Program-made: the position numbers and the translations under genes
Shown here: piece by piece, positions 2,491 through 27,940 of the stretch
How the letters are laid out: every line of letters begins with the position of its first letter
How positions within the stretch are numbered: the stretch's first letter is position 1
Assembly: GCF_014652455.1 (NCBI RefSeq)
Contig: NZ_BMYV01000002.1
Span: 620,001-684,000 of the forward strand
Source of the DNA: Litorimonas cladophorae
GTDB taxonomy: Bacteria > Pseudomonadota > Alphaproteobacteria > Caulobacterales > Maricaulaceae
Reading direction: 5' to 3'
DNA length: 64,000 nucleotides
The notes under the pieces: generated by a model
Database searches by the model: none
Seen by the model: the letters and a program-made list of their open reading frames with translations, nothing else
What the model was told of the DNA's origin: nothing

Positions 2491-2539
2491 CTGTACGGCA
2501 TTTAATTGCACTGAAGCTCTACCGCGCTAGGATGTGATC

Positions 2540-5550: not shown

Positions 5551-5576
5551 AACATGAAGGTGTCATATTTTACAAA

Positions 5577-5640: not shown

Positions 5641-5680
5641 ATATGTAAAGGAAATGAAAATTATAAAGGGGAGGCCCAAT

Positions 5681-11904: not shown

Positions 11905-12706
11905 GGCTTTGTCACGTTAACGGCACCAAGTCTGTTTTTCTGTAATTTAGAACTTTAAGGACACATTGATGCCGACGCTAAGTTCCAGTTCAGGTTGGCT
12001 TGGTGTCTGAACTTCCGGAGTGTATCCCTTGTAATGAGGTGGCGTCGATAGTTGAAAAGATTGTAAATTTGAGCGTGAGCCGAAAGCAACTTTTGAGCTT
12101 TATGGACTGATTTGAATCTCTGTGATTTTCGTTTTCTTCGCCGGATAGGAACGTGTGAACATTCGGCACGGTTGTTCTTTCGACCTCCAACGTCTTGCAA
12201 ATGTTTCATCCCTAGAAGCTTGAGCGCTGCACCGTACGAACCAAGTCTATCGGTCACTATTCTTGTAGGCTTGATACCTTGGTTTTTCAGCAGTTTCCGC
12301 AGCCAGCGCAGCGCTGCTTTTGTATTACGTCGTCTTTGCACAACTACATCTAATACTGTGCCTTCTTCATCGACGGCTCGCCAGAGATAGACCATCTCGC
12401 CGTCTATTTTCGTATAAACTTCGTCTAAATGCCAAGCAGGCGAGGGTGGTTCGGCTCGCAACTTTATCCGCTTTGCATATGTAGATCCAAACTTATCAAC
12501 CCACCTTCTTATCGTTTCATAAGACACATCGACGCCGCGTTCGGTCATCAGCTCTTCGACATCGCGGAAGCTAAGGTTGAACCGAAAATACATCCAGACG
12601 TCACGTTTGATTATATCGGGATGGAAGCGATGCCGGGCGTAAATTGACGTTTTCAGCGCTATGTCTTAGCGGAATGTCTGGAAACTGGCATCAACGTGAC
12701 AAAGTC
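11905..12706 (-). mobile_element. IS6-family insertion sequence, copy 1 (about 802 bp)
   Basis: The ends are imperfect inverted repeats: left GGCTTTGTCACGTTAACGGC from 11905, right complement beginning GACTTTGTCACGTTGATGCC and ending at 12706. The length is normal for IS6. No 8-bp target duplication is seen, so recombination or deletion followed insertion. The right end is two bases from the galE stop. About 801 bp of closely related sequence recurs at 29637-30437. Confidence 0.82.
11955..12656 (-). CDS. IS6-family DDE transposase, start codon altered to CTG
   Basis: Reading from CTG (complement of 12654-12656) the protein is 233 residues and begins LKTSIYARHRFHPDII, matching copy 2, which has ATG at the same place. 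The DDE residues lie in HLDEVY, TDRLGSYG and NNRAECSH. A stop lies four codons upstream of the CTG, so either CTG is used or translation starts at the internal ATG (12593), losing 21 residues from the N-terminal region. The C-terminus is intact, unlike copy 2. Activity is doubtful because of the lost ATG. Confidence 0.82.
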   Translation of the reverse strand: MKTSIYARHRFHPDIIKRDVWMYFRFNLSFRDVEELMTERGVDVSYETIRRWVDKFGSTYAKRIKLRAEPPSPAWHLDEVYTKIDGEMVYLWRAVDEEGTVLDVVVQRRRNTKAALRWLRKLLKNQGIKPTRIVTDRLGSYGAALKLLGMKHLQDVGGRKNNRAECSHVPIRRRKRKSQRFKSVHKAQKLLSAHAQIYNLFNYRRHLITRDTLRKFRHQANLNWNLASASMCP

Positions 12707-12708: not shown

Positions 12709-13722
12709 TTAATCATGGTTCCACTTTTGAGAATGAAAACGCCAAGCCGTTTTTATGATATTTGTGATATCGGAGTGAGACGGAGTAAAGCCAAGGACTG
12801 CTTTTGCACGGCCGCTATCGGCGTATAACTTAGTGACATCTCCTGCTCGGGGTGGTGCGGCATCAAAGGGTACGGCAAGCCCGGTGACAGCCTCGACAGT
12901 CTTTAAAATTTCTAGGTTACTAATGGGACGGCCTGTACCAATGTTCACCTCCGCATGCGTCAGACCTTTATCAAACGCAAATTCGGACAATATGTGAGCT
13001 TCAGCTATGTCATTAACGTGAATGTAGTCTCGCAAGCATGTTCCGTCTGGCGTCTGGTAATTTGTGCCGAAAATTTTCATCTTTGGACGGCGCCCGGCGG
13101 CCGCCTCTAAAGCGATTGGAATTAGGTGGGTCTCTGGATTGTGCTCTTCACCGATGAGGCCACTTTCGTCGGCGCCTGAAGCGTTGAAGTACCGGAGCGT
13201 GACATATTTCAAATCATATGCTTTGTGAAAGCTCTGAATCATATGTTCAATTGCTAGCTTGGTTTTGCCGTAAACGCTAACGGGGTTTTGTAGTTCCGTT
13301 TCGACTAGAGGCATATTTTGTGTTTCGCCGTAGGTCGCGCAGGTCGACGAAAATATCAATCTATCGGCTTGGGTTTCATTCATAGCCAGAAGCAAGTTCA
13401 ACGCTGCCGAGACGTTGTTGTCGTAAAATTGGGCAGGCTCTTTTTCTCCAGTGCCGACTTCAATAGAGCTGGCCAAGTGAATGACTGTTTTCACATGCTC
13501 ATAGTGATTGAAAGCTTGCGATGTAGCTTCTCTATCTCGCAAATCTACATCGACAAGGGGACCCCATTGCACCGCATGCGCGTGGCCCGCTGACAAGTTG
13601 TCGAATGTAATTGGGACCCCCCCCAGATCAGCAATGGATTTGCAAACGTGGCTGCCGATATACCCTGCCCCACCAGCGACGATAAAATCTCGGCCAGCGA
13701 GTGTTTGATGAGGTGACGTCAT
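12709..13722 (-). CDS. galE: UDP-glucose 4-epimerase
   Basis: A 337-residue short-chain-dehydrogenase-fold enzyme that interconverts UDP-galactose and UDP-glucose, the last Leloir step. It has the NAD motif GGAGYIGSH (17-25), FSST near 124-127, and the catalytic Tyr151-x3-Lys155 (SVYGKTK). ATG 13722 is chosen rather than an upstream frame inside glpD: it begins one base after the glpD stop and gives the usual family length. It is the last gene of galT-galK-glpD-galE; the IS6 end lies two bases beyond its stop, so any further operon gene has been removed or displaced. Confidence 0.95.
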   Translation of the reverse strand: MTSPHQTLAGRDFIVAGGAGYIGSHVCKSIADLGGVPITFDNLSAGHAHAVQWGPLVDVDLRDREATSQAFNHYEHVKTVIHLASSIEVGTGEKEPAQFYDNNVSAALNLLLAMNETQADRLIFSSTCATYGETQNMPLVETELQNPVSVYGKTKLAIEHMIQSFHKAYDLKYVTLRYFNASGADESGLIGEEHNPETHLIPIALEAAAGRRPKMKIFGTNYQTPDGTCLRDYIHVNDIAEAHILSEFAFDKGLTHAEVNIGTGRPISNLEILKTVEAVTGLAVPFDAAPPRAGDVTKLYADSGRAKAVLGFTPSHSDITNIIKTAWRFHSQKWNHD

Positions 13723-13723
13723 T

Positions 13724-15241
13724 TTAAATCTCGTCCAGCGTTGTGGGGCTGTTAGGTCTATGGGTTTTTTCAAACCATTTTTTGAAGTCAAATTGTTCCG
13801 ATGGCGTCATGTGAAGCCCCGATTTGGTTCGCCGCCAAAGGACGTCATCGGCAGCCTTTGCCCATTCATACTCAACAAGATAGTTTGCTTCGGCTTCTGT
13901 TAGCACAGGGCCAAACCGCTGTCCTAAATTCCCACAACAATTTTCAAGTAATTTTTCCGCGCGCGTTCCGTAGGCTCGACCGAGGTGTTTGAGGATGGTA
14001 AAATCAATGGCCGAGTATTTGATTTTCAATCCCTCGTAAAACTCATCGAAGTCCGCGTCTTTAATATCTCCGCCAGGGAGTATGGCATCCCGTGTCCACG
14101 GTTCTGACTTTGTCTTTAGATAGGAGGAAAGTTTTTCGAGAACATGTTCGGCAAGTTTTCTTGAGGTCGTGATCTTGCCCCCATAGATAGATAAAAACGG
14201 CGCATTCTCAGAAAACTCATCAATTTTTAATACGTAATCTCGAGTGACCGCAGATGCATCGCTATTCTTATCGTCAAAGAGAGGACGTACCCCTGAGTAG
14301 GTCCAGACGATTTCTAACGGTGTTACTGGCTTTCTGAAATACTCGCTAGCGGATTCACACAAATAGATTTTTTCCTCTTCGGAAATTTCAACGACTCGGT
14401 CGCTGGGCTCATACGGATTATCGGTTGTCCCAATAAGAGTGTAATCACTTTCATAGGGTATTGCGAAAATAATACGATCGTCAGAGTTTTGAAAAATGTA
14501 GCAATGATCACCATCGAATAGCTTTTTAGTCACAATATGACTGCCCTTCACAAGCCGAAGTTCGGCTGTGCTTTTTCCTGGTTTCATCTTTTGCAGGATA
14601 TCTTCGACCCAAGGTCCAGCTGCATTTACGACGGCCTTTGCATGTATGGTACTGGATTTTTCATTCTCGTATACCTCCGCTTCGTATCCGTCGTGCATCG
14701 CCTTTATCGTTTTTACTGTTGTCTGTGTTCTTATTCGAGCACCCCGTTCATGAGCATCTACTGCATTTAATGTGACGAGACGCGCGTCTTCCACCCAGCA
14801 ATCTGAGTATTCGAACCCTTTGGTCAGACGTGAACGCAGTTGGCCTTTAAAGGGACCAGATTGCAGATTGACTGTCGTCGTAGCAGGGAGAATTTTTCGC
14901 CCTCCCAAATGGTCATAAATAAACAGCCCTAAGCGTAATAGCCAAGCTGGACGAAGGCCTTTGTCATACGGAAGTATAAATCGCAGGGGCCAAATAACGT
15001 GCGGCGCGGAGCGTAAAAGGACCTCACGTTCTTGAAGAGCTTTGCGCACCAGTCCGAACTCGAAATATTCTAAATAGCGAAGCCCACCATGGATTAACTT
15101 TGTACTGGCAGAGGAGGTGTGGCTCGCGAGATCGTCCCTTTCACACAGAACGACGGAGAGACCTCGGCCTGCAGCATCTCGCGCAATCGCGGTTCCGTTG
15201 ATACCGCCGCCGATGATTAATAAGTCAAAAGAACTGGTCAT
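13724..15241 (-). CDS. glpD: Glycerol-3-phosphate dehydrogenase (FAD)
   Basis: A 505-residue enzyme that oxidises sn-glycerol-3-phosphate to dihydroxyacetone phosphate and passes electrons to quinone at the inner membrane. The FAD site GGGINGTAIARDAAGRG lies at the N-terminus, followed by the family signature STKLIHGGLRYLE. C-terminal residues include the DAILPGGDI region typical of GlpD. It sits between galK and galE in one operon, an unusual place: it makes sense if the substrate releases both galactose and glycerol. No glycerol kinase gene is seen in the window. Confidence 0.94.
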   Translation of the reverse strand: MTSSFDLLIIGGGINGTAIARDAAGRGLSVVLCERDDLASHTSSASTKLIHGGLRYLEYFEFGLVRKALQEREVLLRSAPHVIWPLRFILPYDKGLRPAWLLRLGLFIYDHLGGRKILPATTTVNLQSGPFKGQLRSRLTKGFEYSDCWVEDARLVTLNAVDAHERGARIRTQTTVKTIKAMHDGYEAEVYENEKSSTIHAKAVVNAAGPWVEDILQKMKPGKSTAELRLVKGSHIVTKKLFDGDHCYIFQNSDDRIIFAIPYESDYTLIGTTDNPYEPSDRVVEISEEEKIYLCESASEYFRKPVTPLEIVWTYSGVRPLFDDKNSDASAVTRDYVLKIDEFSENAPFLSIYGGKITTSRKLAEHVLEKLSSYLKTKSEPWTRDAILPGGDIKDADFDEFYEGLKIKYSAIDFTILKHLGRAYGTRAEKLLENCCGNLGQRFGPVLTEAEANYLVEYEWAKAADDVLWRRTKSGLHMTPSEQFDFKKWFEKTHRPNSPTTLDEI

Positions 15242-15274
15242 AGCTTTAACCTGAAAAGCGGCGTTGTTCGTAAA

Positions 15275-16339
15275 TTAACAGACAAGAAAGGCGTCGGTAT
15301 GTTTGGATAAGAGCTCACTCTGCCATGCTTGACGTTTGCCTCGTTCGATACATGCTACGATGCAGCCTCCGAAACCGCCTCCGGTTTGACGCGCACCTAT
15401 ACCGCCAAACGAAATGGCGTCCGCGACTAAAGCATCGACAGGTGGAATGGTAATTTCGAAGTCTTCTCGCATGGAGACGTGGCTTTCATTCATCAGCTCA
15501 CCTAGCCGAGAAATATGACTGTCGCGCAAACAGGTTACCGCTTCAACTGTCCGTCGGTGTTCCGTCATACAGTGCCGCGCGCGGCGCCGAAGAGTGTTTG
15601 GAAGCGAGCTGAGACTCGCAAATTCTACATCGGTCATTTGACAGATGTTTTCGCGCCCCAAGGCTACCTTGATCGCATCACATTCTTCCTTGCGCTCCTT
15701 ATAACGCCCCTCATTCAGTTGCCTGAATTGCCCTGAATGGATAACTGCCATGTCATGGGTCGTGGGAAGATCAATAAGCTGGTAGTTCAGGGTATTTGTA
15801 TCGAGCGCCAAGGCTTGTCCTGGATGGGCGATGGCAACGGCCATTTGATCCATGATCCCACATGGCATCCCAATATATTCATTTTCAACGCGACGGGCGA
15901 GAATAGCGATCTCTTTTTCAGAACTAGTACTGCCAGCCAAGTCTCGGGCTAACTTCAAAAGACCAACGGTAACAGCCGCTGAAGATGAAATTCCGGCGCC
16001 AAATGGCAAATTTGTTTCAACAGCAATATCCGCGCCGCGCTTTAGATATCCGGCCTCAATCGCCATCTTGACTGCGCCCACAATATAGTCAGACCAATGG
16101 TCATTTGGTGCGTCGTCAGTTTTCCGCCTGGCCAAATCTTCAAATTTGTCCGACCAAATCTGAATTCTATCATCATTCCGTGGGCTGAATGCGATGCTGA
16201 CACCAAGAGGCAAAGCCGTTGGTAAAACCATACCTCCATTGTAATCTGTATGCTCGCCAATTAGATTGACACGTCCGGGGGTAAAGCCACTTATCTGGGC
16301 TTTCTTATCGAACACTTTTTCGAAACGCTGGGCAATCAT
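15275..16339 (-). CDS. galK: Galactokinase
   Basis: A 354-residue GHMP kinase that phosphorylates galactose at C1. It contains the galactokinase signature GRVNLIGEHTDYNGG (22-36), the ATP loop PFGAGISSSAA near 109-119, GMPCGIMDQ with the catalytic Asp, and the C-terminal GARQTGGGFGG. It starts two bases after the galT stop, so the genes are translationally coupled. Cytoplasmic. Confidence 0.95.
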   Translation of the reverse strand: MIAQRFEKVFDKKAQISGFTPGRVNLIGEHTDYNGGMVLPTALPLGVSIAFSPRNDDRIQIWSDKFEDLARRKTDDAPNDHWSDYIVGAVKMAIEAGYLKRGADIAVETNLPFGAGISSSAAVTVGLLKLARDLAGSTSSEKEIAILARRVENEYIGMPCGIMDQMAVAIAHPGQALALDTNTLNYQLIDLPTTHDMAVIHSGQFRQLNEGRYKERKEECDAIKVALGRENICQMTDVEFASLSSLPNTLRRRARHCMTEHRRTVEAVTCLRDSHISRLGELMNESHVSMREDFEITIPPVDALVADAISFGGIGARQTGGGFGGCIVACIERGKRQAWQSELLSKHTDAFLVC

Positions 16340-16341
16340 AT

Positions 16342-17436
16342 CTAAAGAGCTCTTAAGGTTTTTGCCGCCATCTCGGGCATAACATCTACCGTGAATGCCC
16401 CAGTGGATTGCTCGACGGATGCGAGATATTTCACTCGCCCAGGCGCGCGTAAAAGGGGGTAGAATTGCGCAGTGAAATGAAAGCGATCATCTGCGCTGCG
16501 CGGGGCTGCGTGCAGAGAAAGCATATAAGCAGTTGGTCGTTGGAAAAACTCATCATATCTTCGGGTTACGTCGCCTAGCAGGTGAGCAAAACCATCAAGT
16601 TGATCAGAGGAGAAATCCCAAGGTCCGCGGGTGCACTTATCGGGTGCAATCCAAGTTTCGAAAGGGAAACGAGCGAAGGGTGGGCAAAAAGCGGTGAGAC
16701 CACCTGCGTGAGCAACGCTATAATCTTCTCTGAAGTCCTGAAGATTTGCCGCCAGGCTGTATCCTTTTCCAAAAGCATTCATGGCGTCCTGCTGGACACG
16801 CGGTACGAATGGGAAGGCATAGATTTGACCATGAGGATGGTGGAGGGTGACGCCTACCTCATCCCCTCGATTTTCAAAAGGTAGCACGAATTCAGCCCCT
16901 TGGTCATAAAGTTCTGTGTATCGGTCGTTCCATGCGGCCAAGAGCAAGCGACGCTTTTCTTGGCCCATCGAATACAAGTTTCCAAAATCTTCAGGCCCAT
17001 AGACAATAACTTCGCATCTGCCCCCTGCGCGCCGCAGTTGGACACTATCAATCTCGGATGGTTGCGGAGCTTCAGAGTGAAGGCTGGTAAATTTATTTTC
17101 GAAAACCGCGAGTTCGAAATCCGTAAAAGGTATTTCCGTCGGCGCCCAGCCCAGTGCCGATGGCGCTAAAGGGTTGTTGGCGGCAGAGGGCTTAAATGTA
17201 CGATTTTGGCGATGAGGCGCATATATATTCCACTCATTCCTGAGGGGGTGAAAGCGGAGCTCTCCGCCTTTAGCAACCGCACCTACATCTTCGTCCAGCG
17301 GAGGAAGAGTGTGAGGCTGATAGCCGTATAGAAACAAATCTCGGCCATCCTTTTTGACAAAGCGTCGGCGGTATACTGCCTCTCCATCAGCGGCATATCG
17401 TGAGTTTGGAGTTTTGACTGTCATCTGACTCATCAT
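16342..17436 (-). CDS. galT: Galactose-1-phosphate uridylyltransferase
   Basis: The enzyme swaps UMP between UDP-glucose and galactose-1-phosphate. The catalytic HPH is seen in VTLHHPHGQIYAF, and the N-terminal RFHPLRNEWNIYAPHRQNR matches the family. The open frame extends to 17538, but the extra N-terminus is not GalT-like. ATG 17436 gives 364 residues; ATG 17433 or 17424 (MTVKTPNSRY) are equally possible, and the last has GATGAG upstream. A GlpR-like operator (17435-17452) overlaps this start, so the operon appears repressed at its first codon. First gene of galT-galK-glpD-galE. Confidence 0.93.
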   Translation of the reverse strand: MMSQMTVKTPNSRYAADGEAVYRRRFVKKDGRDLFLYGYQPHTLPPLDEDVGAVAKGGELRFHPLRNEWNIYAPHRQNRTFKPSAANNPLAPSALGWAPTEIPFTDFELAVFENKFTSLHSEAPQPSEIDSVQLRRAGGRCEVIVYGPEDFGNLYSMGQEKRRLLLAAWNDRYTELYDQGAEFVLPFENRGDEVGVTLHHPHGQIYAFPFVPRVQQDAMNAFGKGYSLAANLQDFREDYSVAHAGGLTAFCPPFARFPFETWIAPDKCTRGPWDFSSDQLDGFAHLLGDVTRRYDEFFQRPTAYMLSLHAAPRSADDRFHFTAQFYPLLRAPGRVKYLASVEQSTGAFTVDVMPEMAAKTLRAL

Positions 17437-17460
17437 TTGCGAAAACGAACATTTTCGTAA
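17435..17460. promoter_or_regulatory. GlpR-like operator at the galT start
   Basis: ATTTGCGAAAACGAACAT (17435-17452) read on the minus strand is ATGTTCGTTTTCGCAAAT, close to the E. coli GlpR operator pattern ATGTTCG-n4-CGAACAT. A further half-site TTCGTAA follows at 17454-17460. Together with the GlpR-like gene just to the right this is a probable autoregulatory and operon-control region. The half-sites are seen; binding is inferred. Confidence 0.6.
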
Positions 17461-17548
17461 CCGTGAGGAGCATGAATGGCTAGAGAAAAAGTAGATTAGG
17501 GAGAAATTATATCCGTTCAGAGCTGAATTATGTGGCAATTTTGGACAG

Positions 17549-17584
17549 AATGTTCGTAAAAAACAGCTTTTGCAAAAACGAAGG
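17549..17584. promoter_or_regulatory. GlpR-like half-sites before glpR
   Basis: AATGTTCGTAAA (17549-17560) and TTTTGCAAAAACGAAGG (17568-17584) repeat the elements of the operator at the galT start, including the TTTGC-AAAACGAA arrangement. They lie 20-55 bases before the regulator's ATG, so the repressor probably controls its own gene. Confidence 0.5.
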
Positions 17585-17603
17585 TCTCTGCTAAACGAGT
17601 CGT

Positions 17604-18383
17604 ATGAGCAAATTTGAACCGTCCAAACGTCAGTCAGCCATTTTGGAAATGGTCGCGGAGGCTGGCTTTGTGGCGACCGAAGCGATGGTGACGACCTTTA
17701 ATGTAACCCCGCAAACAATTCGGCGGGACCTCAACGAGCTCAGCCGACATTCGTTTCTTTCAAGGTTTCACGGCGGCGCAGGTCAAATCAAGAGCGCAGA
17801 GAACCCGCCTTATAAAGACCGCTTGCAATCGGGTGTTGAGGCGAAACGGAAAATTGCAGCCGCTACGGCTGCTTTAATTCCCAATGGGGCTTCCATCTTT
17901 TTAAGTACTGGAACGACCATCGAGGCGATCGCAGAGGCTTTGCTTGGACACGATAAACTGCATGTATTTACCAACAATCTGCATGTTGCTAGGATATTGA
18001 CAAAGAACGAAAGTTTTCAAATTATCGTATCATGTGGACAGGTAAGGCATTCGGATGGAGGTATTATTGGTTCGTCCTCCGATGACTTTATCGGTGACTT
18101 TAGAATGGATATAGGAATTGTCGGGATCAGCGGAGTTGATGAAGACGGTTCACTCCTGGAGTATGACCCTCAGGAGGTGAAGACCGCAAAGACGATCCTC
18201 CGAAATTCGCAGAAAGTTTTCATGGTGGCGGACAGGCACAAGTTTGGACGTCGTGCGATGAACCGTATCGGTCATATTAGAGAGTTGGATGTGATCATAA
18301 CCGACAGTAAGTTAAATCCTCATTTCAAGAGTGTGTGTGAAGTCGAGAATGTTGAGGTGATCGTGCCTGTAGAGGTGGCCTAA
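17604..18383 (+). CDS. glpR: DeoR-family repressor, GlpR ortholog
   Basis: A 259-residue repressor. The N-terminal helix-turn-helix has VTPQTIRRDLNEL (about 39-51), the same recognition segment as E. coli GlpR (SPQTIRRDLNEL). The sugar-phosphate-sensing domain keeps DGGIIG, GIVGISGVDEDGSLLE and KFGRRAMNRIG, each close to GlpR and not generally shared with GatR/AgaR. E. coli GlpR is released by glycerol-3-phosphate, so the divergent gal-glpD operon is predicted to be induced by glycerol-3-phosphate and not by galactose. The start is supported by length; the ribosome site is weak. Confidence 0.86.
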   Translation: MSKFEPSKRQSAILEMVAEAGFVATEAMVTTFNVTPQTIRRDLNELSRHSFLSRFHGGAGQIKSAENPPYKDRLQSGVEAKRKIAAATAALIPNGASIFLSTGTTIEAIAEALLGHDKLHVFTNNLHVARILTKNESFQIIVSCGQVRHSDGGIIGSSSDDFIGDFRMDIGIVGISGVDEDGSLLEYDPQEVKTAKTILRNSQKVFMVADRHKFGRRAMNRIGHIRELDVIITDSKLNPHFKSVCEVENVEVIVPVEVA

Positions 18384-18710
18384 AATATTCACGCATCAGG
18401 CTTTCGGCTAAATTTTCCACTCAACACCTCTTTCGCGAGCCAATTTTCCCAAATTGCAATTAAAGCATGTGCGTTTGCAAATATTATTGTGTTCCTGCAA
18501 GCTGAAGCGCGTTCAAATTTGCACGCAATTCAACGATTGATCCACTTAACATGCAAAAATCGGCAAGAAAATGGTGCAAAATTACAACAAGTTTATGAAA
18601 ATGTTCGAATTAGAAGATTTTTTCTTGACGAAATCGAGCTTGAATTTAGGGTGGTCGCAAATATCGCAAAATAAGCGACGGTAACAAAACAGACCTTTGG
18701 GAGAGAAGTA
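18384..18710 (+). promoter_or_regulatory. Control region of the TBDR2-SSS operon
   Basis: This 327-base gap holds no gene. A promoter candidate is TTGACG (18625-18630), 17 bases, then TAGGGT (18648-18653), about 57 bases before the receptor ATG. ATGTTCGAATTAGAAG at 18601 contains a perfect GlpR half-site ATGTTCG, and TTTGCAAAT near 18474 resembles the other arm. TTGCAATTAA near 18455 resembles the repeat upstream of the GH97 operon. A GGGAGAG ribosome site stands 5-11 bases before ATG 18711. Confidence 0.45.
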
Positions 18711-21479
18711 ATGCGTCTAGGCACGAAAAGTTTATTGGTATGCACGGTCGGCACGGCGGCGATGATGGTTGCGGTTCCGGCCTTTGCGCAGGTTTCAGGG
18801 CAGGATTCGGAAGATGTCGTTGTGGCAACGGGTATTCGTAGTTCCATCCAGCGCGCGCAAGATATCAAGCGAGAGGCGATTGGTGTCGTAGATGCGATTG
18901 CAGCCGAGGATCTTGGTAAGTTTCCTGACCTTAACGTTGCTGAGTCGCTGCAGCGTATCAGTGGTTTAGCGATTGACCGTTCTGGCGGCGAGGGTCAGGC
19001 TGTTACAATTCGGGGCTTGGGGCCGCAATTCAACACTGTGCTAATGAACGGCCGGCAGATTGCCACGGATTCTGGTGGTCGTGAATTCAACTTTGATGTT
19101 TTGGCGGCCGAGCAGATTACAGGTGCTACGGTCTACAAGTCAGGTCGTTCGAATTTGCAGGAAGGTGGAATTGGCGGCACTATTAATGTGACGACAGCTC
19201 GTCCATTTGACAATCCGGGCTTCCAGATGGCCGGAACGGTCAAGGGCGTATATGAAAGCCTTTCTGAGAAAATTTCTCCAGCTGGTTCGTTGTTGATCAG
19301 CAATACCTTCAATGATGACAAATTTGGTTTGTTGGGGGCGGTAAGCTACTCAGAGCGTGATGTGCAGATCAATCAGATCGCCACGGCTGGTTGGCGTCCT
19401 GGGCAAACCATTTCAAATGTGAATGACGGCGTATTGTTTGAGAATGCTTATATTCCTCGAAATTGGGATCAGATCGTGGATCGACAAAAGCGAAAGCGGT
19501 TAAACGCAAGTCTTGCAGCGCAATTTGCGCCTAACGATGACATAACAGTGACGTTGGATGGTTTTATTTCAAAGTTCGAGGTGGATTCTGAAGTAACGGA
19601 TTTGGCGTCGTGGTTTGAGCCTGATCGTGTCGGGAGTGGAACAATTGATGCAAACGGAACATTGACCAGCTTTACTCAAGAAATTGGTCTAAACCAAGGG
19701 TCTGGCGATCCTGCTTCAGATTTTGTTTCTACTACAAGAAACTCTCGCGATGTTACCAACACAGGTTTCGGTGCAAACATTGACTGGGACGCAACAGAAA
19801 ATTTGAGCGTGAGCTTGGATGCGTTTCATTCAACTGCCGAAAACGATCGCGCTGGTAAGGATCGGTTTAATGTTGTGGGGATTATCAATAATTATTCTTT
19901 CGACGGAACGGGCGAATATCCAACGGTTCAGCATGACGGATTTTCCGGGAATTCGCTTCCAGACGCAAATTTGAGTCGTTTACATTATAACGAAAAAGGA
20001 AACGTCCCAACGGATGAGGATCAGATTACAGAATTCAAGGCCGACTTTGTTTACACGCCTGATGTGGATGCAATCAAAGCGGTGCGTTTTGGCGCGTATA
20101 ATCAAATGCGTGAAAAGTCCCGTTTCCAGATATTCGGCAACCAGTGTGCGTTCTGTGGTTATCAAGTCGCGGCGCCGAATGATGTGATAAGTTTCCGTCC
20201 GTTCACGGCCGGAAACTTCTTCCCCGGATTGATTGATACATTCTACACCTATGACGGTGATGCCTATGTTGATTATTTGTCAGATCAGGGTGTGCCAATT
20301 GTTACGTCTCTTCAAAACAACCGCTATGAAATCAACGAAGACATCATAAGTGCATATACGGATGTCACTGTCGGTTTCGACGCGGGTAATGTGCCAGTCG
20401 AAATCAATATGGGCATGCGCTACTCCGACACGGACATTGATGTCACAGCCGTTCAGAGCTTCATTGCTGATGTCGTTCCAACAACCGATCTGACGCTATT
20501 TTCTAACGTCTTTGGTCCGGCTACTGATATCACAGAGGGGGGGTCTTACTCCAACTTCCTTGGAAACGTGGATGTCTCCTTTGAGGTTCGTGAGGACATG
20601 AAGCTTCGGTTTGCGGCCTATGAGTCGCTGACTCGGGCAACAATGTCCGAGCTCTCCCCCGCGACAAACTTTGGTGAGCCGCGTCGTCAAAACCTCACAG
20701 CCAGCGGTGGTAATCCGGCTCTCAATCCGTTCAAGTCTACCAACTTTGATGCGGCTTACGAGTGGTACTACAGTGACGATAGTGTCTTCTCTGTTGCTGC
20801 GTTTCACAAAGATATCGACGATATCATTGTGAATCTCACGGGCAATGAATCTTTCACGTTGGCAAATCGTTCAGCTGCTGATGGTTTCCGGTGCGCCGGA
20901 ACCACACCGAGCTGTGCGGCTCCGGGTGATATCGACCCTAGTCGTTCTGGATTTGACGTCATCGCAAATACTGAAGAGTTGAACGGCGAGAGTGAACTCT
21001 ATCGCGTTAGTCGCCCGCAAAACGGCGAGTCGGCCACGGTTACCGGTATCGAAGTTGCGATCACTCACGTGCTTGATAACGGTTTTGGTTTCTCTGCGAA
21101 CGCAACTTTTGTCGATAGTAATGTGGTTCTTGACCCGACTTCGGCGACCAACTTCTCTCTAGAGGGTGTTGGGGATTCGCAGAATGCTGTTCTTTTCTAC
21201 GAAAACGAGAAACTGCAGGCTCGCGTTGCTTACAACCGTCGTGAAGGTTTCCTTCGTCGCATCGATAATGGCTTCAATGGTGAGCCAATCAATACGGAAA
21301 CATTTGGCCAATTTGATGCCAGCGCAAGTTACGACATCAACGAACAATATAGTATTTTCGTTGAAGGTATTAATATTACGGGTGAAGAGCTGCGCCAAAC
21401 TGGACGCTTTGAAAACCAAATTTACTCGATCGAAGATAATGGATCGCGTTACGCAATTGGAGTGCGCGGAAAGTGGTAA
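18711..21479 (+). CDS. TonB-dependent receptor (carbohydrate type)
   Basis: A complete 922-residue outer-membrane receptor. Signal peptide 1-26 ends in AFA. The plug follows, with VVVATGIRSSIQRAQDIKR, GKFPDLNVAESLQRISGLAI and the segment INVTTARPFD, typical of the Caulobacter/Xanthomonas sugar-receptor group. The barrel ends in Trp (IGVRGKW). GGGAGAG fixes the start. It heads the halogenase-SapC-GH36-GH42-SSS operon, so its ligand is predicted to be a galactoside. An unusual CxxC loop (NQCAFCGY) lies in mid-barrel. A terminator-like hairpin directly after the stop probably makes it more abundant than the downstream enzymes. Confidence 0.95.
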   Translation: MRLGTKSLLVCTVGTAAMMVAVPAFAQVSGQDSEDVVVATGIRSSIQRAQDIKREAIGVVDAIAAEDLGKFPDLNVAESLQRISGLAIDRSGGEGQAVTIRGLGPQFNTVLMNGRQIATDSGGREFNFDVLAAEQITGATVYKSGRSNLQEGGIGGTINVTTARPFDNPGFQMAGTVKGVYESLSEKISPAGSLLISNTFNDDKFGLLGAVSYSERDVQINQIATAGWRPGQTISNVNDGVLFENAYIPRNWDQIVDRQKRKRLNASLAAQFAPNDDITVTLDGFISKFEVDSEVTDLASWFEPDRVGSGTIDANGTLTSFTQEIGLNQGSGDPASDFVSTTRNSRDVTNTGFGANIDWDATENLSVSLDAFHSTAENDRAGKDRFNVVGIINNYSFDGTGEYPTVQHDGFSGNSLPDANLSRLHYNEKGNVPTDEDQITEFKADFVYTPDVDAIKAVRFGAYNQMREKSRFQIFGNQCAFCGYQVAAPNDVISFRPFTAGNFFPGLIDTFYTYDGDAYVDYLSDQGVPIVTSLQNNRYEINEDIISAYTDVTVGFDAGNVPVEINMGMRYSDTDIDVTAVQSFIADVVPTTDLTLFSNVFGPATDITEGGSYSNFLGNVDVSFEVREDMKLRFAAYESLTRATMSELSPATNFGEPRRQNLTASGGNPALNPFKSTNFDAAYEWYYSDDSVFSVAAFHKDIDDIIVNLTGNESFTLANRSAADGFRCAGTTPSCAAPGDIDPSRSGFDVIANTEELNGESELYRVSRPQNGESATVTGIEVAITHVLDNGFGFSANATFVDSNVVLDPTSATNFSLEGVGDSQNAVLFYENEKLQARVAYNRREGFLRRIDNGFNGEPINTETFGQFDASASYDINEQYSIFVEGINITGEELRQTGRFENQIYSIEDNGSRYAIGVRGKW

Positions 21480-21509: not shown

Positions 21510-21548
21510 GGGGCTGGTAGGAATATTCTTATCAGCCCCTATTTTTTG
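21510..21548 (+). terminator. Near-palindromic hairpin with T tract between TBDR2 and halogenase 3
   Basis: GGGGCTG (21510-21516) pairs with CAGCCCC (21533-21539), and the interior GGAATATTC is itself self-complementary, so almost the whole 30-base block can fold. TATTTTTT follows. It lies 31 bases after the receptor stop and 16 bases before the next start, so it should act as a partial terminator or attenuator inside the operon. Confidence 0.85.
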
Positions 21549-21563
21549 GCCTACAGAAATTGG

Positions 21564-23087
21564 ATGATGTCGGACCCAATCAAATCAATACTCATCGTTG
21601 GCGGAGGAACTGCCGGTTGGTTAAGTGCGGCTATTATAGCGGCCCACCACAAAGATCGTCCTGATGGTTCTCTGACCATTACGCTTGTGGAGGCTTCCGA
21701 CATCCCGACTGTTGGTGTGGGAGAGGGGACTTGGCCGACCATCCGTAATACAGTCCGTATGCTAGGCCTAGATGAGAAGAAGGTTTTTCGAGAATGTTTC
21801 GCTGGATTCAAACAAGGCGGAAAATTTGTGAATTGGGTGACAGAGGACGATTATTATTACCACCCTTTCACAGTTCCTCTTGGATATGGGCAGCTCGACA
21901 TGGCACCCTACATTGAAGACATCGAAGAATTCGCTCTAGAGGCTAATTACCAACAAGAGATTTGTGAGGCAGGTCTCGCCCCCAGGTCTTTGTCAGAAGG
22001 AGATTTCCAAAGTATCTGTAATTACGCCTACCACCTTGACGCTGGCGCCTTTGCCAATTTGCTAAAAGAACACTGCAAAACTGAACTCGGTGTTCAGCAC
22101 GTTATAGGGTCAGTTAATGACGTACACTTCAACGACCAAGGGTATATCGGATCCTTGAGTTTAGAAGGCGCCGCGGGCCCATTTGTTCTTGATGCCGATC
22201 TATTTGTTGATTGTACCGGGTTTCGGTCTCTACTTCTTGGAAAAGCGCTCAACGTTCCGTTTGTGTCCAACGAACAATACCTTTTTAACAATCGGGCCAT
22301 TGCAATACATGTACCCTATGAAAATGAGGATGATCCTGTTGCTTGTCATACGATTGCGACAGGACAAAATGCAGGATGGACTTGGGATATTGGACTCACC
22401 AATAGGCGAGGCGTTGGTCATGTCTATTCTGATGAGTTCTTGTCCGATGAAGAAGCTGCAGCAAACCTGAGAAATTACATCAACCAACCGCTCGACGGGT
22501 TCGAGATCAAGCAATTTAAATTTCAATCTGGTTACCGACAGCAAACTTGGAAGAACAATTGCGTTGCTATCGGTTTGGCTTGCGGGTTTGTAGAGCCCCT
22601 CGAGGCGACAGCGATTATGCTGGTCGAGGTCGCCGCGCGATATGTTGCTGAAAATCTACCGGCCAATGAATCTATAATGCAGGTAACTGCAAAGCGATTT
22701 AATCGGCAAATGGAATATCGTTGGTCTCGGATCACAGATTTTTTGAAACTTCACTACATGCTAACAAAGCGAAAAGAGCCGTATTGGAGGGCCCATTGTG
22801 AAGACAGTAGCATACCAGCGAGCCTGAAGGAAGATTTAGAAATTTGGAAGCATCGCGGACCAACCAAATCGGATTTTGACGGTGTTGCAGAGCTCTTTCC
22901 CGCCGCTAGCTATCAATATGTTATGTATGGAATGGGGTATAAGCCTGATTATTCTCGTCAGTCATATTTGTATAACCAAGAAGTTCAGGCCAATCGTATT
23001 CGTCAGAAGAACCAACTTATGACGCAGCAACTCTTAAACAACCTTCCGCCCCACAGAGATTACATTGAGCATTGGCTCAATCAGTAG
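21564..23087 (+). CDS. Flavin-dependent tryptophan-halogenase-family protein (3)
   Basis: A PrnA-like flavoenzyme of 507 residues, more divergent than the two at 2540-5550. It keeps GGGTAGW, GVGEGTWP, the active-site lysine in AGFKQGGKF and the Glu of VEPLEATAI. The WxWxIP signature reads WTWDIGL (Pro replaced by Gly), and the Ser next to the catalytic Glu is Ala, as in TBDR-linked subfamilies. The open frame begins with TTG 21546, but that lies in the terminator tail; ATG 21564 or 21567 is preferred. SapC follows after 9 bases. Substrate unknown. Confidence 0.87.
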   Translation: MMSDPIKSILIVGGGTAGWLSAAIIAAHHKDRPDGSLTITLVEASDIPTVGVGEGTWPTIRNTVRMLGLDEKKVFRECFAGFKQGGKFVNWVTEDDYYYHPFTVPLGYGQLDMAPYIEDIEEFALEANYQQEICEAGLAPRSLSEGDFQSICNYAYHLDAGAFANLLKEHCKTELGVQHVIGSVNDVHFNDQGYIGSLSLEGAAGPFVLDADLFVDCTGFRSLLLGKALNVPFVSNEQYLFNNRAIAIHVPYENEDDPVACHTIATGQNAGWTWDIGLTNRRGVGHVYSDEFLSDEEAAANLRNYINQPLDGFEIKQFKFQSGYRQQTWKNNCVAIGLACGFVEPLEATAIMLVEVAARYVAENLPANESIMQVTAKRFNRQMEYRWSRITDFLKLHYMLTKRKEPYWRAHCEDSSIPASLKEDLEIWKHRGPTKSDFDGVAELFPAASYQYVMYGMGYKPDYSRQSYLYNQEVQANRIRQKNQLMTQQLLNNLPPHRDYIEHWLNQ

Positions 23088-23096: not shown

Positions 23097-23858
23097 ATGG
23101 CCACTCTGAAAGCCTTATCCCCAGATGCGCACCGAACCTTGAAGCTTAAAAGCGACAACGGAATTTTCTACGCAAAGAAGGCGCATATGTTATCGCTTCG
23201 AGTGACTGAAGTCGCCCAAGCCACTGTCGCCTTTCCTGTGTTTATCAGCCGGATGGGCAACGGCTCAATGAGCCTTTCAGCTCTGACGAGTTTTGAACCT
23301 GGAAAAAATTTGTTCGTCTCCAAAGGTGAGTGGGTCTCTAGCTTCACGCCAACAGCCATGAAGACTTATCCGATCTTCCTTATGAAACCTATGGACGGGA
23401 ACTCGGAACCTGTCATGGGCATAGACGAAGGTAGCGAGGCTCTCAGCACAACTGAAGGTCAGGCGATTTTTGATAGTAAAGGAAAGTTGTCGCTCCCCCT
23501 GAAGCAGTTGAAAACTCAGCTAATGGAGGATTCTAGAAATATCGTTCACACCGTCCAGTTTTTTGAGACCTTAACATCTTATGGTCTAGTCGTGCCTATA
23601 GATATGTCACTGAACTACAGCGACGGAAAAACAAACCGTGTTCGCGGATTGAGCATGATACATGAAGACAAATTCCAGTCGCTGAGCGCGGAGAATCTGG
23701 CTGACCTTCGGGATCGAGGATATCTAGCACCCATTTACGCGATGTTGTTTTCCGTATTCCAGTTAAATGCGTTGATCCGTCGTAACAACCAAGTTGACGA
23801 TATTGATCACATTAAAAGCATTAATTTGGAAGTTAGCAAAGACACTCGTCTTGCATAG
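23097..23858 (+). CDS. SapC family protein
   Basis: A 253-residue protein of the SapC family (PF07277), named after a Campylobacter S-layer-associated gene. Recognisable stretches are VAFPVFISRMGNGSMSLSAL, FLMKP, and DRGYLAPIYAMLFSVFQLNAL near the C-terminus. No signal peptide is visible. SapC genes recur beside TBDR and halogenase genes in marine and Caulobacter-like bacteria; their biochemical role is not established. AGGAC ends 6 bases before the ATG, and the stop overlaps the ribosome site of the GH36 gene. Confidence 0.85.
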   Translation: MATLKALSPDAHRTLKLKSDNGIFYAKKAHMLSLRVTEVAQATVAFPVFISRMGNGSMSLSALTSFEPGKNLFVSKGEWVSSFTPTAMKTYPIFLMKPMDGNSEPVMGIDEGSEALSTTEGQAIFDSKGKLSLPLKQLKTQLMEDSRNIVHTVQFFETLTSYGLVVPIDMSLNYSDGKTNRVRGLSMIHEDKFQSLSAENLADLRDRGYLAPIYAMLFSVFQLNALIRRNNQVDDIDHIKSINLEVSKDTRLA

Positions 23859-23867: not shown

Positions 23868-26078
23868 TTGATAACCGTTTCTGAAAACAACATATTTGCT
23901 TTGACGAATTCATATTTCTCATATGTTTTCCGCGTGTCTCCAGAAGGGATTTTGGAACATCTCCACTATGGGGGCTCCTTGCGTGATCCACTAAAAGTCG
24001 CGACCCATCATTTACGAACACAAAGAGAAGTGGCCACTAACTTTCAAGGTGGACCATATTTTAGTCTGTCAGATACTCCGCAAGAATATCCGAGTTTTGG
24101 GACATCCGATTTCCGTTTTCCTGCTTTGCATGGTAGAAACTCTGACGGAAATACTGTCTTTTCCCTACATTATAAGAAGCATAAAATTGTTACGGATAAA
24201 CCACGGCTGAAAAAGCTCCCCTCCGCGCGTGGTGGCGACAGTGAAACTTTGATCGTCACGCTTGAGGATGTTCTGCACAAGCTAGAGGTCGAACTTCATT
24301 ATACGATTTATCAAGATTATGGCGTTCTTGTGCGTTCCACCAAACTGAAAAACAAAGGCGATAAAGAGATACAGCTGCAGCATGCATTTAGCTCGGCCTT
24401 AGATCTTCCTCCGCAAGACTACGAAATTCTTCATTTGCATGGCACATGGTCAAGGGAATTTAATGAAGAGCGTATTGACGTTCCAAAAGGTCGCTTTGTC
24501 GTGGACAGCGCACGGGGAACCTCTAGCGCCGCGCATAATCCATTTATCGCAATCGTACAAAAGGGTGCGACTGAGGAGCATGGACGGGTGCATGCAACGA
24601 CATTGATGTATAGTGGCAATTTCGCTCTCTCCGTTGAAAAGGGCGAGTTCGAAGATGTACGTCTTCTCGCTGGGATAAACCCGTATAATTTTCATTGGCG
24701 TCTAAAGCCTGGTAAAAAATTCTGCACACCTGAAGCTCTGCATGTTTATGCAGATAAAGGCCTACGGAGCATGAGTCACATCTGGCACGAATTCGTCCGT
24801 GATAAAGTTTCTCCTGAACGTTTCCGACACAAGCCTCGTCCGACATATTTAAATACGTGGGAAGCCGCATATTTTGATGTTGATGAGACCAAAGTTCTTC
24901 ATCTCGCGGATAAGGCAAAGGATATCGGCGTAGATATGCTCGTGCTCGATGATGGATGGTTTGAAGGACGCCGTGATGATACTTCATCCTTGGGCGATTG
25001 GACCGCAGATAAGAAACGTTTTCCAAGCGGTATTCCGGCTCTCGCCGCCAAAGTGAAAGCCAAAGGGTTGAAATTCGGAATTTGGTTTGAACCTGAAATG
25101 GTCAACCCGAAAAGCCAATTGTTTAAAAATCACCCTGACTGGATTCTTCACGTTCCCGGGCGCAAGCCGTCTTTGGGAAGGAATCAATTGACGCTCGATT
25201 TGTCACGGCCAGAAGTCATTGATTATCTATATGGACAGATAGACAACATCCTATCTTGCGGGGATATTGATTACGTAAAATGGGACATGAACCGAAACAT
25301 GACGGAGGTTGGTTCGGCTGGACTACCTAAAAATCGGCAGAGGGAAGTCTCTCACAGGTATATGATTGGTTTATATGATTTGCTCAAACGGCTGACCAAG
25401 AAATATCCAGATATCTTGTTCGAAAATTGCGCAAGTGGAGGGAACCGATTTGACCTCGGAATGCTTAGCTTTATGGCGCAAAACTGGACGAGCGATATGT
25501 GCGACCCCATCGGTCGATTGGAGATTATCAACGGCTGTTCGTATCTCTTTCCCCTCGACGTGACGGCCGCTTATATTGGTCCGTCACCTAATCATCAAAA
25601 TGGTCGGAAAAGTTCTATCGATACGCGGTTTAACGCCGGCGCATTCTGTGCGGCTCGGGGGATTTCCTTGAATGAGACTGACATTGAGGAGAACAAAGAT
25701 CAGCTCCAAAATCTCATGCAATTTGCCAAAAACTCCGCCGAAGATATGGTTGGCGGACGTTTTGATCGGCTGATTAAAACTGACACTGAGGTCTGTTGGC
25801 AATATACCACCCGAGATGAAACGAAAGTCTATTTGGCCTATTTCCATATTCTTGCCGCCCCAAACCTACCCTTCCGACGCGCGCGTATGGTCGGATTAAA
25901 CCCGAATGCTGATTATACTCTCGTGGAGGATGGCGTTCGGTATGCTGGTGATGCGCTAATGCAAAGCGGCATGCCTTTGCCCTACGTTGCTACGGGCCAA
26001 GTCAACGAAAATGTTCGTTATATGGCGAAGGGTGATTTCTCATCCTATTTGTTTGTCTTTGAGAAAGTCGCGCAATGA
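23868..26078 (+). CDS. Alpha-galactosidase, GH36
   Basis: A 736-residue GH36 enzyme that releases alpha-linked galactose. Order: N-terminal beta-sandwich (1-320), (beta/alpha)8 barrel with NTWEAAYFD, VLDDGWF (360-365) and FEPEM, the nucleophile Asp473 in YVKWDMNR, the acid/base Asp543 in WTSD, then a C-terminal beta domain. No signal peptide, so it acts in the cytoplasm on imported sugar. The start is TTG 23868: AGGAG at 23857-23861 is 6 bases upstream and there is no better ATG. Its stop overlaps the GH42 start (ATGA). Galactose made here feeds the gal operon; floridoside, melibiose or raffinose-type sugars are candidates. Confidence 0.95.
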   Translation: MITVSENNIFALTNSYFSYVFRVSPEGILEHLHYGGSLRDPLKVATHHLRTQREVATNFQGGPYFSLSDTPQEYPSFGTSDFRFPALHGRNSDGNTVFSLHYKKHKIVTDKPRLKKLPSARGGDSETLIVTLEDVLHKLEVELHYTIYQDYGVLVRSTKLKNKGDKEIQLQHAFSSALDLPPQDYEILHLHGTWSREFNEERIDVPKGRFVVDSARGTSSAAHNPFIAIVQKGATEEHGRVHATTLMYSGNFALSVEKGEFEDVRLLAGINPYNFHWRLKPGKKFCTPEALHVYADKGLRSMSHIWHEFVRDKVSPERFRHKPRPTYLNTWEAAYFDVDETKVLHLADKAKDIGVDMLVLDDGWFEGRRDDTSSLGDWTADKKRFPSGIPALAAKVKAKGLKFGIWFEPEMVNPKSQLFKNHPDWILHVPGRKPSLGRNQLTLDLSRPEVIDYLYGQIDNILSCGDIDYVKWDMNRNMTEVGSAGLPKNRQREVSHRYMIGLYDLLKRLTKKYPDILFENCASGGNRFDLGMLSFMAQNWTSDMCDPIGRLEIINGCSYLFPLDVTAAYIGPSPNHQNGRKSSIDTRFNAGAFCAARGISLNETDIEENKDQLQNLMQFAKNSAEDMVGGRFDRLIKTDTEVCWQYTTRDETKVYLAYFHILAAPNLPFRRARMVGLNPNADYTLVEDGVRYAGDALMQSGMPLPYVATGQVNENVRYMAKGDFSSYLFVFEKVAQ

Positions 26079-27940
26079 GACCCGAACTCGGCGTTTGCTA
26101 CTATCCTGAACATTGGCCCGAGACCTCGTGGGAAACTGACGCGCGCGAGATGCGTGAACTTGGCCTCGATTGGGTTCGGATTGGTGAATTTGCATGGAGT
26201 AAAATTGAACCCAGGCCGGGGCATTTTGAGTGGGAGTGGTTAGATCGTGCGGTCTCTGTTTTAGGCGAAGCCGGACTAAAGGTCGTTATGGGAACACCTA
26301 CAGCTACACCTCCTCGATGGATGCTTGATAAGCATCCAGATATGATCGCATTTGACGTCAATGGACGGCCACGAAAATTTGGATCGCGGCGACATTATTG
26401 TTTTTCGCATGACGGTTATCGCGGAGAAAGTGTTCGGATTACCGAATTACTTGGAGAACGGTATGGTGACAACTCATATGTTCGGGCTTGGCAGACAGAT
26501 AATGAATATGGATGTCACGAGACTATTGTTTCCTATAGTCCTGCAGCTGCCTTGGCATTCCGGAGTTGGTTGAAAGAAAAATATCAGACGGCTGATGCTC
26601 TCAACAAAGCATGGGGCAATATCTTTTGGTCAATGGAATATAGTGATTTTACGCAAATCGACTTGCCAAATTTAACCGTAACTGAAGCTAATCCTTCTCA
26701 TGTTCTGGATTTTAGACGTTTTAGCTCTGATCAAGTTGTACGTTTCAATCGTGCCCAGTGTGAGGTTTTACGCCGCTTTTCTGAAAAACCGCTAATTCAT
26801 AATTATATGGGCAGAATTACCGAGTTTGATCATTTTGACGTCGGTAAGGACCTAGATATCGCAAGCTGGGATAGTTACCCGCTAGGCTTCCTTGAAGACC
26901 GCTCAGATCAGGACGACGACTTCAAGCACAAATACATGCGACAGGGAGACCCAGATTTTCAGGCTTTTCATCACGATCTGTATCGCGCCGTAGGCAAGGG
27001 GCGTTGGTGGGTCATGGAGCAGCAGCCAGGGCCAGTAAACTGGGCGCCATTCAATCCTGCTCCGTTGCCAGGCATGGTCAATCTATGGACATGGGAGGCG
27101 GTCGCACATGGCGCCGAGGTTGTAAGCTATTTTCGTTGGCGCCAGGCACCCTTTGCACAGGAGCAAATGCATGCGGGTTTAAAGCGATCGGATAATGAGT
27201 GGGCTGATGGCGCGCAAGACGTTCGGAATTTTGTTTCAGAACTGTCTGAAATATCGGATATAAACCTACAGACCGCACCTGTTGGACTTGTGTTTGATTA
27301 TGAGTCTGCATGGGCATGGGACACCCAACCACAAGGGCTGACTTTTGACTATTTTAAACTCGTTTACGATGTTTATCGCGGACTAAGAAGGTTAGGCCTG
27401 TCCGTGGACATTCTGCCTCCAAGTACCACCGATTTTGGTGAAAGGAGGTTAGTCTGTATTCCAGGATTATTTACGTGGTCGCCTGAACTAAAAAAAGCTG
27501 TCTCTAAATTTTCAGGGCAAGTTTTAATGGGGCCTCGTTTTGGGTCGAAAACGCCAGATTTCAATATTCCTGAAACCTTGCCTCCAAACGTTCCTGGGTT
27601 TGCCTGTAAGGTAAAGTCTGTTGAGACACTGAGGCCAAGTGTCGTTTTGCCTCTCAAAGATGGTGGGGGAATAGCCTCTTGGCGTGAATTTATCGAAACA
27701 TCAGAAGAGGTCACGGAAAAAACGGAAGACGGCAATGCCGTTTTGATTGTGAAAGCGAATATCTGGTATCTTGCAGGCTGGCCTGATGATGAAGCGATGA
27801 TAAGATTACTGGGCGAGGTCGCAAAAAAATCCGACCTCGAAACTTTTCCAGTTGAAGGTGGACAAAGACGTCGTGAGTTTGGACCATATGTCCTACATTC
27901 AGATTACGACACTGGCGAAATTCAAATAATAAAAAAATAA
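26075..27940 (+). CDS. Beta-galactosidase, GH42
   Basis: A 621-residue cytoplasmic GH42 enzyme. The N-terminal motif GVCYYPEHWP, acid/base Glu144 in WQTDNEYG, and nucleophile Glu315 in WWVMEQQPGPVNW are clear; the trimerisation and C-terminal beta domains follow. It removes non-reducing beta-galactosyl (sometimes alpha-L-arabinopyranosyl) residues. With the GH36 next to it, the cell can deal with both anomers of galactose. It overlaps the GH36 gene by ATGA. Confidence 0.95.
   Translation: MRPELGVCYYPEHWPETSWETDAREMRELGLDWVRIGEFAWSKIEPRPGHFEWEWLDRAVSVLGEAGLKVVMGTPTATPPRWMLDKHPDMIAFDVNGRPRKFGSRRHYCFSHDGYRGESVRITELLGERYGDNSYVRAWQTDNEYGCHETIVSYSPAAALAFRSWLKEKYQTADALNKAWGNIFWSMEYSDFTQIDLPNLTVTEANPSHVLDFRRFSSDQVVRFNRAQCEVLRRFSEKPLIHNYMGRITEFDHFDVGKDLDIASWDSYPLGFLEDRSDQDDDFKHKYMRQGDPDFQAFHHDLYRAVGKGRWWVMEQQPGPVNWAPFNPAPLPGMVNLWTWEAVAHGAEVVSYFRWRQAPFAQEQMHAGLKRSDNEWADGAQDVRNFVSELSEISDINLQTAPVGLVFDYESAWAWDTQPQGLTFDYFKLVYDVYRGLRRLGLSVDILPPSTTDFGERRLVCIPGLFTWSPELKKAVSKFSGQVLMGPRFGSKTPDFNIPETLPPNVPGFACKVKSVETLRPSVVLPLKDGGGIASWREFIETSEEVTEKTEDGNAVLIVKANIWYLAGWPDDEAMIRLLGEVAKKSDLETFPVEGGQRRREFGPYVLHSDYDTGEIQIIKK

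Follow-up and report, generated by a model that had tools for sequence, protein, structure and literature searches.

A divergent galactose and glycerol locus with putative GlpR operators in Litorimonas cladophorae, a candidate unit for galactosylglycerol catabolism

Litorimonas cladophorae, a marine bacterium whose genus is associated with seaweeds, is a member of the Maricaulaceae in the Alphaproteobacteria. The window analyzed here is a stretch of 64,000 nucleotides from its genome (contig NZ_BMYV01000002.1, positions 620,001 to 684,000), an assembly of 3.02 Mb in 9 contigs. It contains a two-armed locus in which galactose genes and glpD are divergent from glpR, the gene of a DeoR-family repressor, and from the genes that follow it (Table 1). 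An earlier note on this DNA had placed the locus at 12709-18383. These limits are too short: the locus reaches approximately 29442 with its second arm, from the TonB-dependent receptor to the SSS-family symporter. Because the earlier coordinates stop at glpR, the alpha-galactosidase, the strongest hint of an alpha-galactoside, was absent from the earlier finding.

The minus arm is composed of galT, galK, glpD, and galE. The earlier description of these four genes on one strand with gaps of 1 to 33 bases, divergent from a GlpR-type repressor, is borne out by coordinates and family assignments. The gaps are 2 bases between galT and galK, 33 between galK and glpD, and 1 between glpD and galE, a spacing which suggests that the four genes are co-transcribed. 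With galK, galT, and galE, the Leloir set is complete in the locus. The galT open reading frame (ORF) is 16342-17538 on the minus strand and has in-frame ATGs at 17436, 17433, and 17424. GalT has weaker scores for two further families, PF02744 (27.2 bits, just under 29.2) and TIGR00209 (96.7 bits, under 102.1).

The plus arm encodes two galactosidases. The GH36 enzyme possesses the GH36 N, catalytic, and C domains, and the KWD nucleophile and SDxxDxxxR acid/base motifs are present in its translation; the motif list comes from PMC8509150. Its nearest solved structures are AgaB and AgaA. The GH36 and GH42 genes overlap by 4 bases, and no signal peptide is visible by eye on either product. The closest solved structures to the SSS symporter by sequence are sodium/glucose cotransporters. 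One locus holds genes for a galactose half and a glycerol half, a galactosidase, a transporter, and a regulator, and glpK is all that is missing.

A glycerol kinase gene was said to be absent from the window and to lie elsewhere, and a genome search found it approximately 24 kb beyond the window end (G000:C2:707608-709104, G000 being the genome of the window). It is the sole kinase over the glpK cut-off in the genome. A second glpD, 63% identical to the window glpD, is divergent from it. A second galK, also 63% identical, lies with a galT at G000:C2:511303-512361, and no match to the locus hydrolases or GlpR was found in the 20 kb around this pair. Because the genome has a second glpD by glpK and a second galT-galK pair, the window locus is taken to be a dedicated set. 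That the window glpD arose by recent duplication of the housekeeping copy was set aside, given its own 0.74-long branch in the GlpD tree. Further galK/galT loci without GlpR or operator were seen at L140 and L182 (genome G002), L133, L148, and L181 (G005), and L132 (G000). Separately, the glpK matches of G045, G044, G058, G052, G115, and G127 have one in-frame stop each within the aligned stretch, which may be an end-of-gene artifact or a sign of decay.

Table 1. Genes and putative operators of the locus, with window coordinates
Feature	Coordinates	Strand	Evidence
galE, UDP-glucose 4-epimerase	12709..13722	-	TIGR01179 361.7 bits, over cut-off; start ATG 13722 within longer ORF
glpD, aerobic glycerol-3-phosphate dehydrogenase, second copy of the genome	13724..15241	-	NF008899 730.6 bits, over cut-off
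galK, galactokinase	15275..16339	-	TIGR00131 273.5 bits, over cut-off
galT, galactose-1-phosphate uridylyltransferase	16342..17433	-	PF01087 71.5 bits, over cut-off; probable start 17433 or 17424
Putative GlpR-type operator before galT, AATGTTCGTTTTCGCAAAT	17435..17453	-	12/14 palindrome positions
glpR, DeoR-family repressor	17604..18383	+	PF08220 (HTH_DeoR) 62.7 bits; PF00455 (DeoRC) 158 bits
Putative GlpR-type operator ~110 bases before TonB receptor, AATGTTCGAATTAGAAGAT	18600..18618	+	12/14 palindrome positions
TonB-dependent receptor, Caulobacter/Xanthomonas type	18711..21479	+	TIGR01782 621 bits; up to 91% identity in relatives' loci
Tryptophan-halogenase-like flavoprotein	21546..23087	+	PF04820
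SapC family protein	23097..23858	+	PF07277
GH36 alpha-galactosidase	23868..26078	+	PF02065/PF16875/PF16874; motifs DDGWF, KWD, SDxxDxxxR
GH42 beta-galactosidase	26075..27940	+	PF02449 498 bits
SSS-family sodium:solute symporter	27979..29442	+	PF00474

The tree supports the repressor as a member of the GlpR family. It was built from 67 rows, including 24 canonical GlpRs encoded within 10 kb of a glpD, with incomplete matches and identical rows dropped. The window protein and its gal-linked relatives fall on the side of E. coli GlpR and the canonical GlpRs, and a split supported at 100/98 divides this side from AgaR, SrlR, and other DeoR proteins. The GlpR model NF008154 gives the window protein 265.5 bits against a cut-off of 331, and the next best family reaches 154.7. 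Three canonical glpD-linked GlpRs score 248-274 (E. coli GlpR, 553), and because canonical GlpRs miss the cut-off too, it cannot split the window protein from them. The repressor had been described as nearly matching E. coli GlpR in recognition helix and ligand domain. This holds for the helix, which reads PQTIRRDLNEL in both proteins, with Q37, N44, and H56 kept. The ligand domain is less close, retaining 38 of the 49 columns that canonical GlpRs conserve. Fifteen residues distinguish canonical GlpRs from five other DeoR rows, and the window protein retains 12 of them (5/5 before residue 78, 7/10 after). In the whole genome, no protein but the window GlpR exceeds the DeoRC cut-off; a further match spans 36 positions and stays below it.

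The E. coli MG1655 glpD promoter reads ATGTTCGATAACGAACAT and contains the palindrome ATGTTCG-N4-CGAACAT. Its 14 fixed positions served as the operator score, ATGTTCG having been spotted in the window first. A site as good as that before galT arises in 3/2000 dinucleotide shuffles of the region, and one as good as that before the TonB receptor in 2/2000. With a whole-genome pattern drawn from the sites of the window and its relatives, the galT operator is the only site in the genome with zero mismatches. There are two matches with one mismatch, the TonB-receptor site and C3:304135, which is inside a coding frame. GlpR would be expected to bind the putative operators at both arms. Further GlpR targets in the same genome were considered and set aside on the basis of the sites with at most one mismatch; 16 sites with at most two mismatches compare with 6 for a reversed control pattern.

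The operator was then scored across the family, leaving out matches that lack a start or have no more than 120 bases upstream and, in the counts by genome, L014, which is on the same contig as L134. The label GlpR+ was given to genomes with a match sharing 50% or more identity with the window GlpR. Full matches number 24, in 23/137 family genomes, and G051 adds a fragment at a contig end; relatives at 37-38% identity in G023 and G048 were left uncounted, and the glpK comparison does not extend to these two genomes. In 25 places, the window included, glpR is beside galT in 21, beside GH36 without a visible galT in one (L185), and away from both in three. Where galT is beside glpR, a site of at least 11/14 is present in 20/20 distinct relatives' loci, and one of at least 12 in 15/20. 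Counted by genome, galT regions score at least 11 in 21/24 cases from GlpR+ genomes and in 0/15 from genomes without the match (GlpR-), and the three misses are second gal loci distant from GlpR. The TonB-receptor regions of GlpR+ relatives score at least 11 in 19/20 and at least 12 in 18/20. The regions before GH36, SSS, galE, and galK in GlpR+ genomes, which are mostly internal to an arm, reach 11 in 1/19, 0/14, 0/12, and 2/23. In shuffles of the pooled relatives' regions, at least 12 is reached in 1/2020 and at least 11 in 30/2020. Because the genomes are related, the p-values here and below are not independent tests.

The same operator marks glycerol genes. A site of at least 12 lies before glpK, where it is divergent from glpD, in 9/20 GlpR+ genomes and in 0/19 GlpR- genomes (best 10), the latter being 19 of about 101 GlpR- genomes with glpK, most of them ranking high in glpK similarity. 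Some of these control genomes are incomplete (from 73%), so GlpR may be missing from some GlpR- assemblies. G039 has a 14/14 operator before an unlinked glpD, and overall a site of at least 12 at glpK or an unlinked glpD is found in 10 GlpR+ genomes. Together with the sites at the two arms, these results make GlpR control of the locus well supported on comparative grounds.

The earlier note had read the minus arm as a Leloir operon with glpD inside it; judged by the relatives, glpD is not the core of the locus. Of 20 relatives' GlpR-galT loci, three show glpD in the stretch examined, and many others have the operator at a separate glpD|glpK. Among the 21 GlpR+ genomes in which glpD was found, five have a local glpD, in or next to the glpR locus, ten have the operator at an unlinked glpD or at glpD|glpK, and none was seen with both (hypergeometric 0.023). 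The local copies are accompanied by gal genes in G000, G050, G047, and G001 and stand without gal genes in G060. In G001, G050, and G047, glpD is between glpR and the receptor and has its own 11-12/14 site. Since it is between galK and galE in the window, glpD occupies two different places.

Loci around GlpD were compared more widely in 80 cases from named genomes, with locus lengths of 3.8 to 21.5 kb. Seven contain galT and/or galK, and all seven contain GH36, which is matched in 1/73 of the others. These seven come from an uncultured Algimonas, three Pontixanthobacter, two Erythrobacter, and one Henriciella. The five Erythrobacteraceae loci have the order GH36-glpD-galT(-galK), with a GH36 31-33% identical to that of the window (confirmed by Pfam for L016) and an SSS symporter near in four; the fifth (L034) is cut. 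In this survey of neighbors, of the kind proposed earlier, glpD, and once glpK, keeps company with galT-galK-GH36 in further lineages. The five Erythrobacteraceae loci gave no GlpR match. At Erythrobacter L052, a GH36-glpD-galT-galK locus with a TonB receptor, the visible regulator is of AraC type (6717-7541). The Henriciella cluster is composed of a glycerol-kinase fragment, glpD, SSS, glpR, GH36, galT, and galK, and on the side of the kinase an operator scoring 13/14 precedes glpD. In the GlpD tree, made by a quick method with incomplete matches and identical rows dropped, the gal-linked copies need five changes, at least two of them forced by well-supported branches. A class-wide sample holds galK in 16/385 genomes, including that of the window, and glpD is 1.1 kb from galK in one of the other 15. 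Gal-type GlpR (E up to 1e-70) is present in 3 of the other 384 genomes and is 45-50% identical.

With a probability of roughly 0.6, the locus is a two-armed catabolic unit for galactosylglycerol, likeliest floridoside or isofloridoside, induced via the glycerol half through GlpR. Galactosylglycerol has been called the main photosynthetic product of red algae, with a role in their osmotic balance (PMC8509150, PMC8703398). In the proposed pathway, the substrate would pass the outer membrane via the TonB receptor and the inner membrane via the SSS symporter. A presumably cytoplasmic GH36, and GH42 for beta-linked forms, would cleave it into galactose and glycerol. GalK, GalT, and GalE would convert the galactose to glucose-1-phosphate, while the unlinked GlpK would produce glycerol-3-phosphate and the local GlpD would oxidize it. 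GlpR would occupy the operators before galT and the TonB receptor and release them when glycerol-3-phosphate rises, so that the sugar genes would be induced by the glycerol half. Galactose genes under a sensor of glycerol phosphate would make sense for a diet in which galactose and glycerol come linked. Isofloridoside is synthesized from these two compounds by a GH36 enzyme (PMC8509150), and glycerol can therefore fill the leaving-group site in this family. The earlier note had reached a galactosylglycerol reading as well, and it is supported in part, by the GlpR kinship, the operators at both arms, the GH36, the sugar symporter, the glpK elsewhere, and the recurring glpD-galT-galK-GH36. The substrate and the effector are nevertheless inferred, and for galactosylglycerol this is a good inference rather than a demonstration. 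Repression, the roles in transport, and the cellular locations are likewise predicted.

Several observations weigh against this proposal, which is drawn from genome comparison. GH36 enzymes also cut raffinose-type sugars, and floridoside leaves GH42 unexplained. The glpD|glpK region of the window's own genome has no operator, its best score being 8-9 of 14. No glpD is visible in 17/20 relatives' GlpR-galT loci, a count limited to the stretches examined, several of which are cut by contig ends (both G057 loci, L126, L150, and others). In G056, G002, G005, G038, G051, and G007, six of the 21 GlpR+ genomes with glpD, no glpD is local and the copy found has no operator; in three more GlpR+ genomes (G046, G036, and G041) glpD was not found. 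Second gal loci of GlpR+ genomes (L132, L133, and L148) are without the operator. Three glpR genes (G060, G056, and G005) stand away from galT, and that of G056 (L180, 9897-10670) is near a different TonB receptor, without operator or GH36. G045, probably Algimonas porphyrae, a genus member from a red alga, has galT-galK-GH36-SSS-GH42 with no GlpR match in the genome and no glpD in the stretch examined. The window GlpR differs at ligand-domain positions 101, 102, and 190; the last is R in 23/25 canonical GlpRs, is kept in 0/24 gal-type GlpRs, and is H in E. coli. Because these positions differ, the effector may have changed in gal-type proteins, and the change at residue 190 may tune the effector response. 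As a separate observation, the GlpR relative of G005 (L181, 9757-10563) is away from galactose genes, beside an MFS transporter gene; the proteins of L180 and L181 are both close GlpR relatives.

An unlikely alternative, and the one that fares best, keeps the GlpR logic unchanged and replaces the substrate. The head groups of the algal galactolipids monogalactosyldiacylglycerol (MGDG) and digalactosyldiacylglycerol (DGDG) are beta-galactosylglycerol and alpha-galactosyl-beta-galactosylglycerol. Release of the outer alpha-1,6-galactose would fall to GH36 and that of the inner beta-galactose to GH42, with galactose and glycerol as the products. The overlap of the two hydrolase genes and the lack of a visible signal peptide on both products fit this scheme, and galactosylglycerols from galactolipids have been proposed as a natural substrate of E. 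coli lac (Egel 1979, cited in PMC8333865). However, it is GH36 that recurs, in 18/19 GlpR loci running past the TonB receptor, the window included (only L180 of G056, which has no gal genes, lacks it). Few GlpR+ gal loci were seen to have GH42 nearby: that of the window, L136, and L138, the last from G036, whose glpR lies on a separate contig. Among the genes of the window locus, none was noticed to encode a lipase.

Somewhat less probable still is a repurposed GlpR that kept its old operator and senses a galactose-derived phosphate, with glpD as a passenger. The food would then be ordinary alpha/beta-galactosides such as melibiose, raffinose, and galacto-oligosaccharides. The altered residue 190 in 24/24 gal-type GlpRs and the altered residues 101-102 in the window would fit, as would the 17/20 GlpR-gal loci lacking glpD and the missing operator at the genome's own glpD|glpK. 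This account does not sit well with the operator at an unlinked glpD or glpD|glpK in 10 GlpR+ genomes and before glpK in 0/19 GlpR- genomes, nor with glpD joining such loci in several lineages. The genome of the window has no other DeoRC match over the cut-off, and we know of no DeoR-family sensor of galactose-1-phosphate.

It is very improbable that glpD entered a galactose operon by chance rearrangement near insertion sequences, without functional coupling: IS6/IS240-type transposase genes do flank the region, but a chance neighborhood is set aside by the recurrence of glpD with GH36 in several lineages (in all seven of the 80 GlpD loci with galT/galK), by the five changes that gal-linked copies require on the GlpD tree (two or more of them forced), by the variety of gene orders, and by conserved operators at both arms.

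The two transposase genes (11955-12593 and 29665-30387) are in the same orientation. A fresh composite transposon was rejected, as they are 82% alike over 300 bases and no inverted repeat of at least 40 bases is present (shorter terminal repeats were not searched). A plasmid-borne GH36 was also rejected; 258 plasmid records match, all below 60% identity. Consensus promoters and terminators are no signal here, with 2 and 3 found against 1.9 and 1.5 in shuffles, and no Rfam match over threshold for a structured RNA was found in 10000-32000. Left of the locus, window positions 82-10800 contain a TonB receptor-like frame, two tryptophan-halogenase-like proteins, GH97, an esterase, a GH13 alpha-amylase-like protein, and DUF6445. 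This saccharide locus looks like one for alpha-glucan use, possibly of floridean starch.

The galactosylglycerol reading of the window locus can be compared to known systems. The lac operon senses a galactoside. The window locus instead has GlpR as its regulator, with the glycerol half as the proposed signal. The two are alike in that galactosylglycerol has been put forward as the natural substrate of a galactosidase operon (Egel 1979, via PMC8333865). The E. coli glp regulon (GlpR, glpD, glpFK) shares the repressor family, the palindrome ATGTTCG-N4-CGAACAT, and a glpD within the regulon. It differs in that the window operators also precede Leloir genes and a TonB receptor and by position would govern GH36/GH42 and the symporter, and in that glpK in the genome of the window is without an operator. 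The gal locus of Porphyrobacter HL-46 (SSS GalPII, RafA, BgaL) likewise has Leloir genes, an SSS symporter, and two cytoplasmic galactosidases (PMC5507952). However, the main text of that paper has no mention of "GlpD", and its available portion names no GlpR and figures binding sites for DgoR and GalR. The Anoxybacillus GH36 galV, which makes isofloridoside from galactose and glycerol, has the family and motifs of the window enzyme; in the available text, no glycerol-linked operon is described and the reverse reaction serves as a tool (PMC8509150). In openly licensed literature, judged by titles and the starts of abstracts among the matches listed, neither a bacterial floridoside pathway nor GlpR-controlled galactose genes were found. 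The locus reads as a new variation on the glp regulon.

More broadly, and at about even odds, marine Robiginitomaculaceae and, with another gene order, Henriciella have an aglycone-sensing GlpR regulon. Glycerol-3-phosphate would drive alpha-galactoside uptake and the Leloir pathway, the food would be red-algal galactosylglycerol, and glpD would be kept under GlpR by an operator at a separate glpD or glpD|glpK or by its position in the locus. If true, this would be, within the literature searched, the first bacterial pathway for floridoside to be defined genetically. Such a pathway can be tested with the gene set, regulator, and putative operators of the locus and with its culturable relatives. 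It would show a repressor gaining a second pathway through operators while its old targets stay, and it allows the notion that galactosidase operons serve galactosylglycerols to be tested by modern means.

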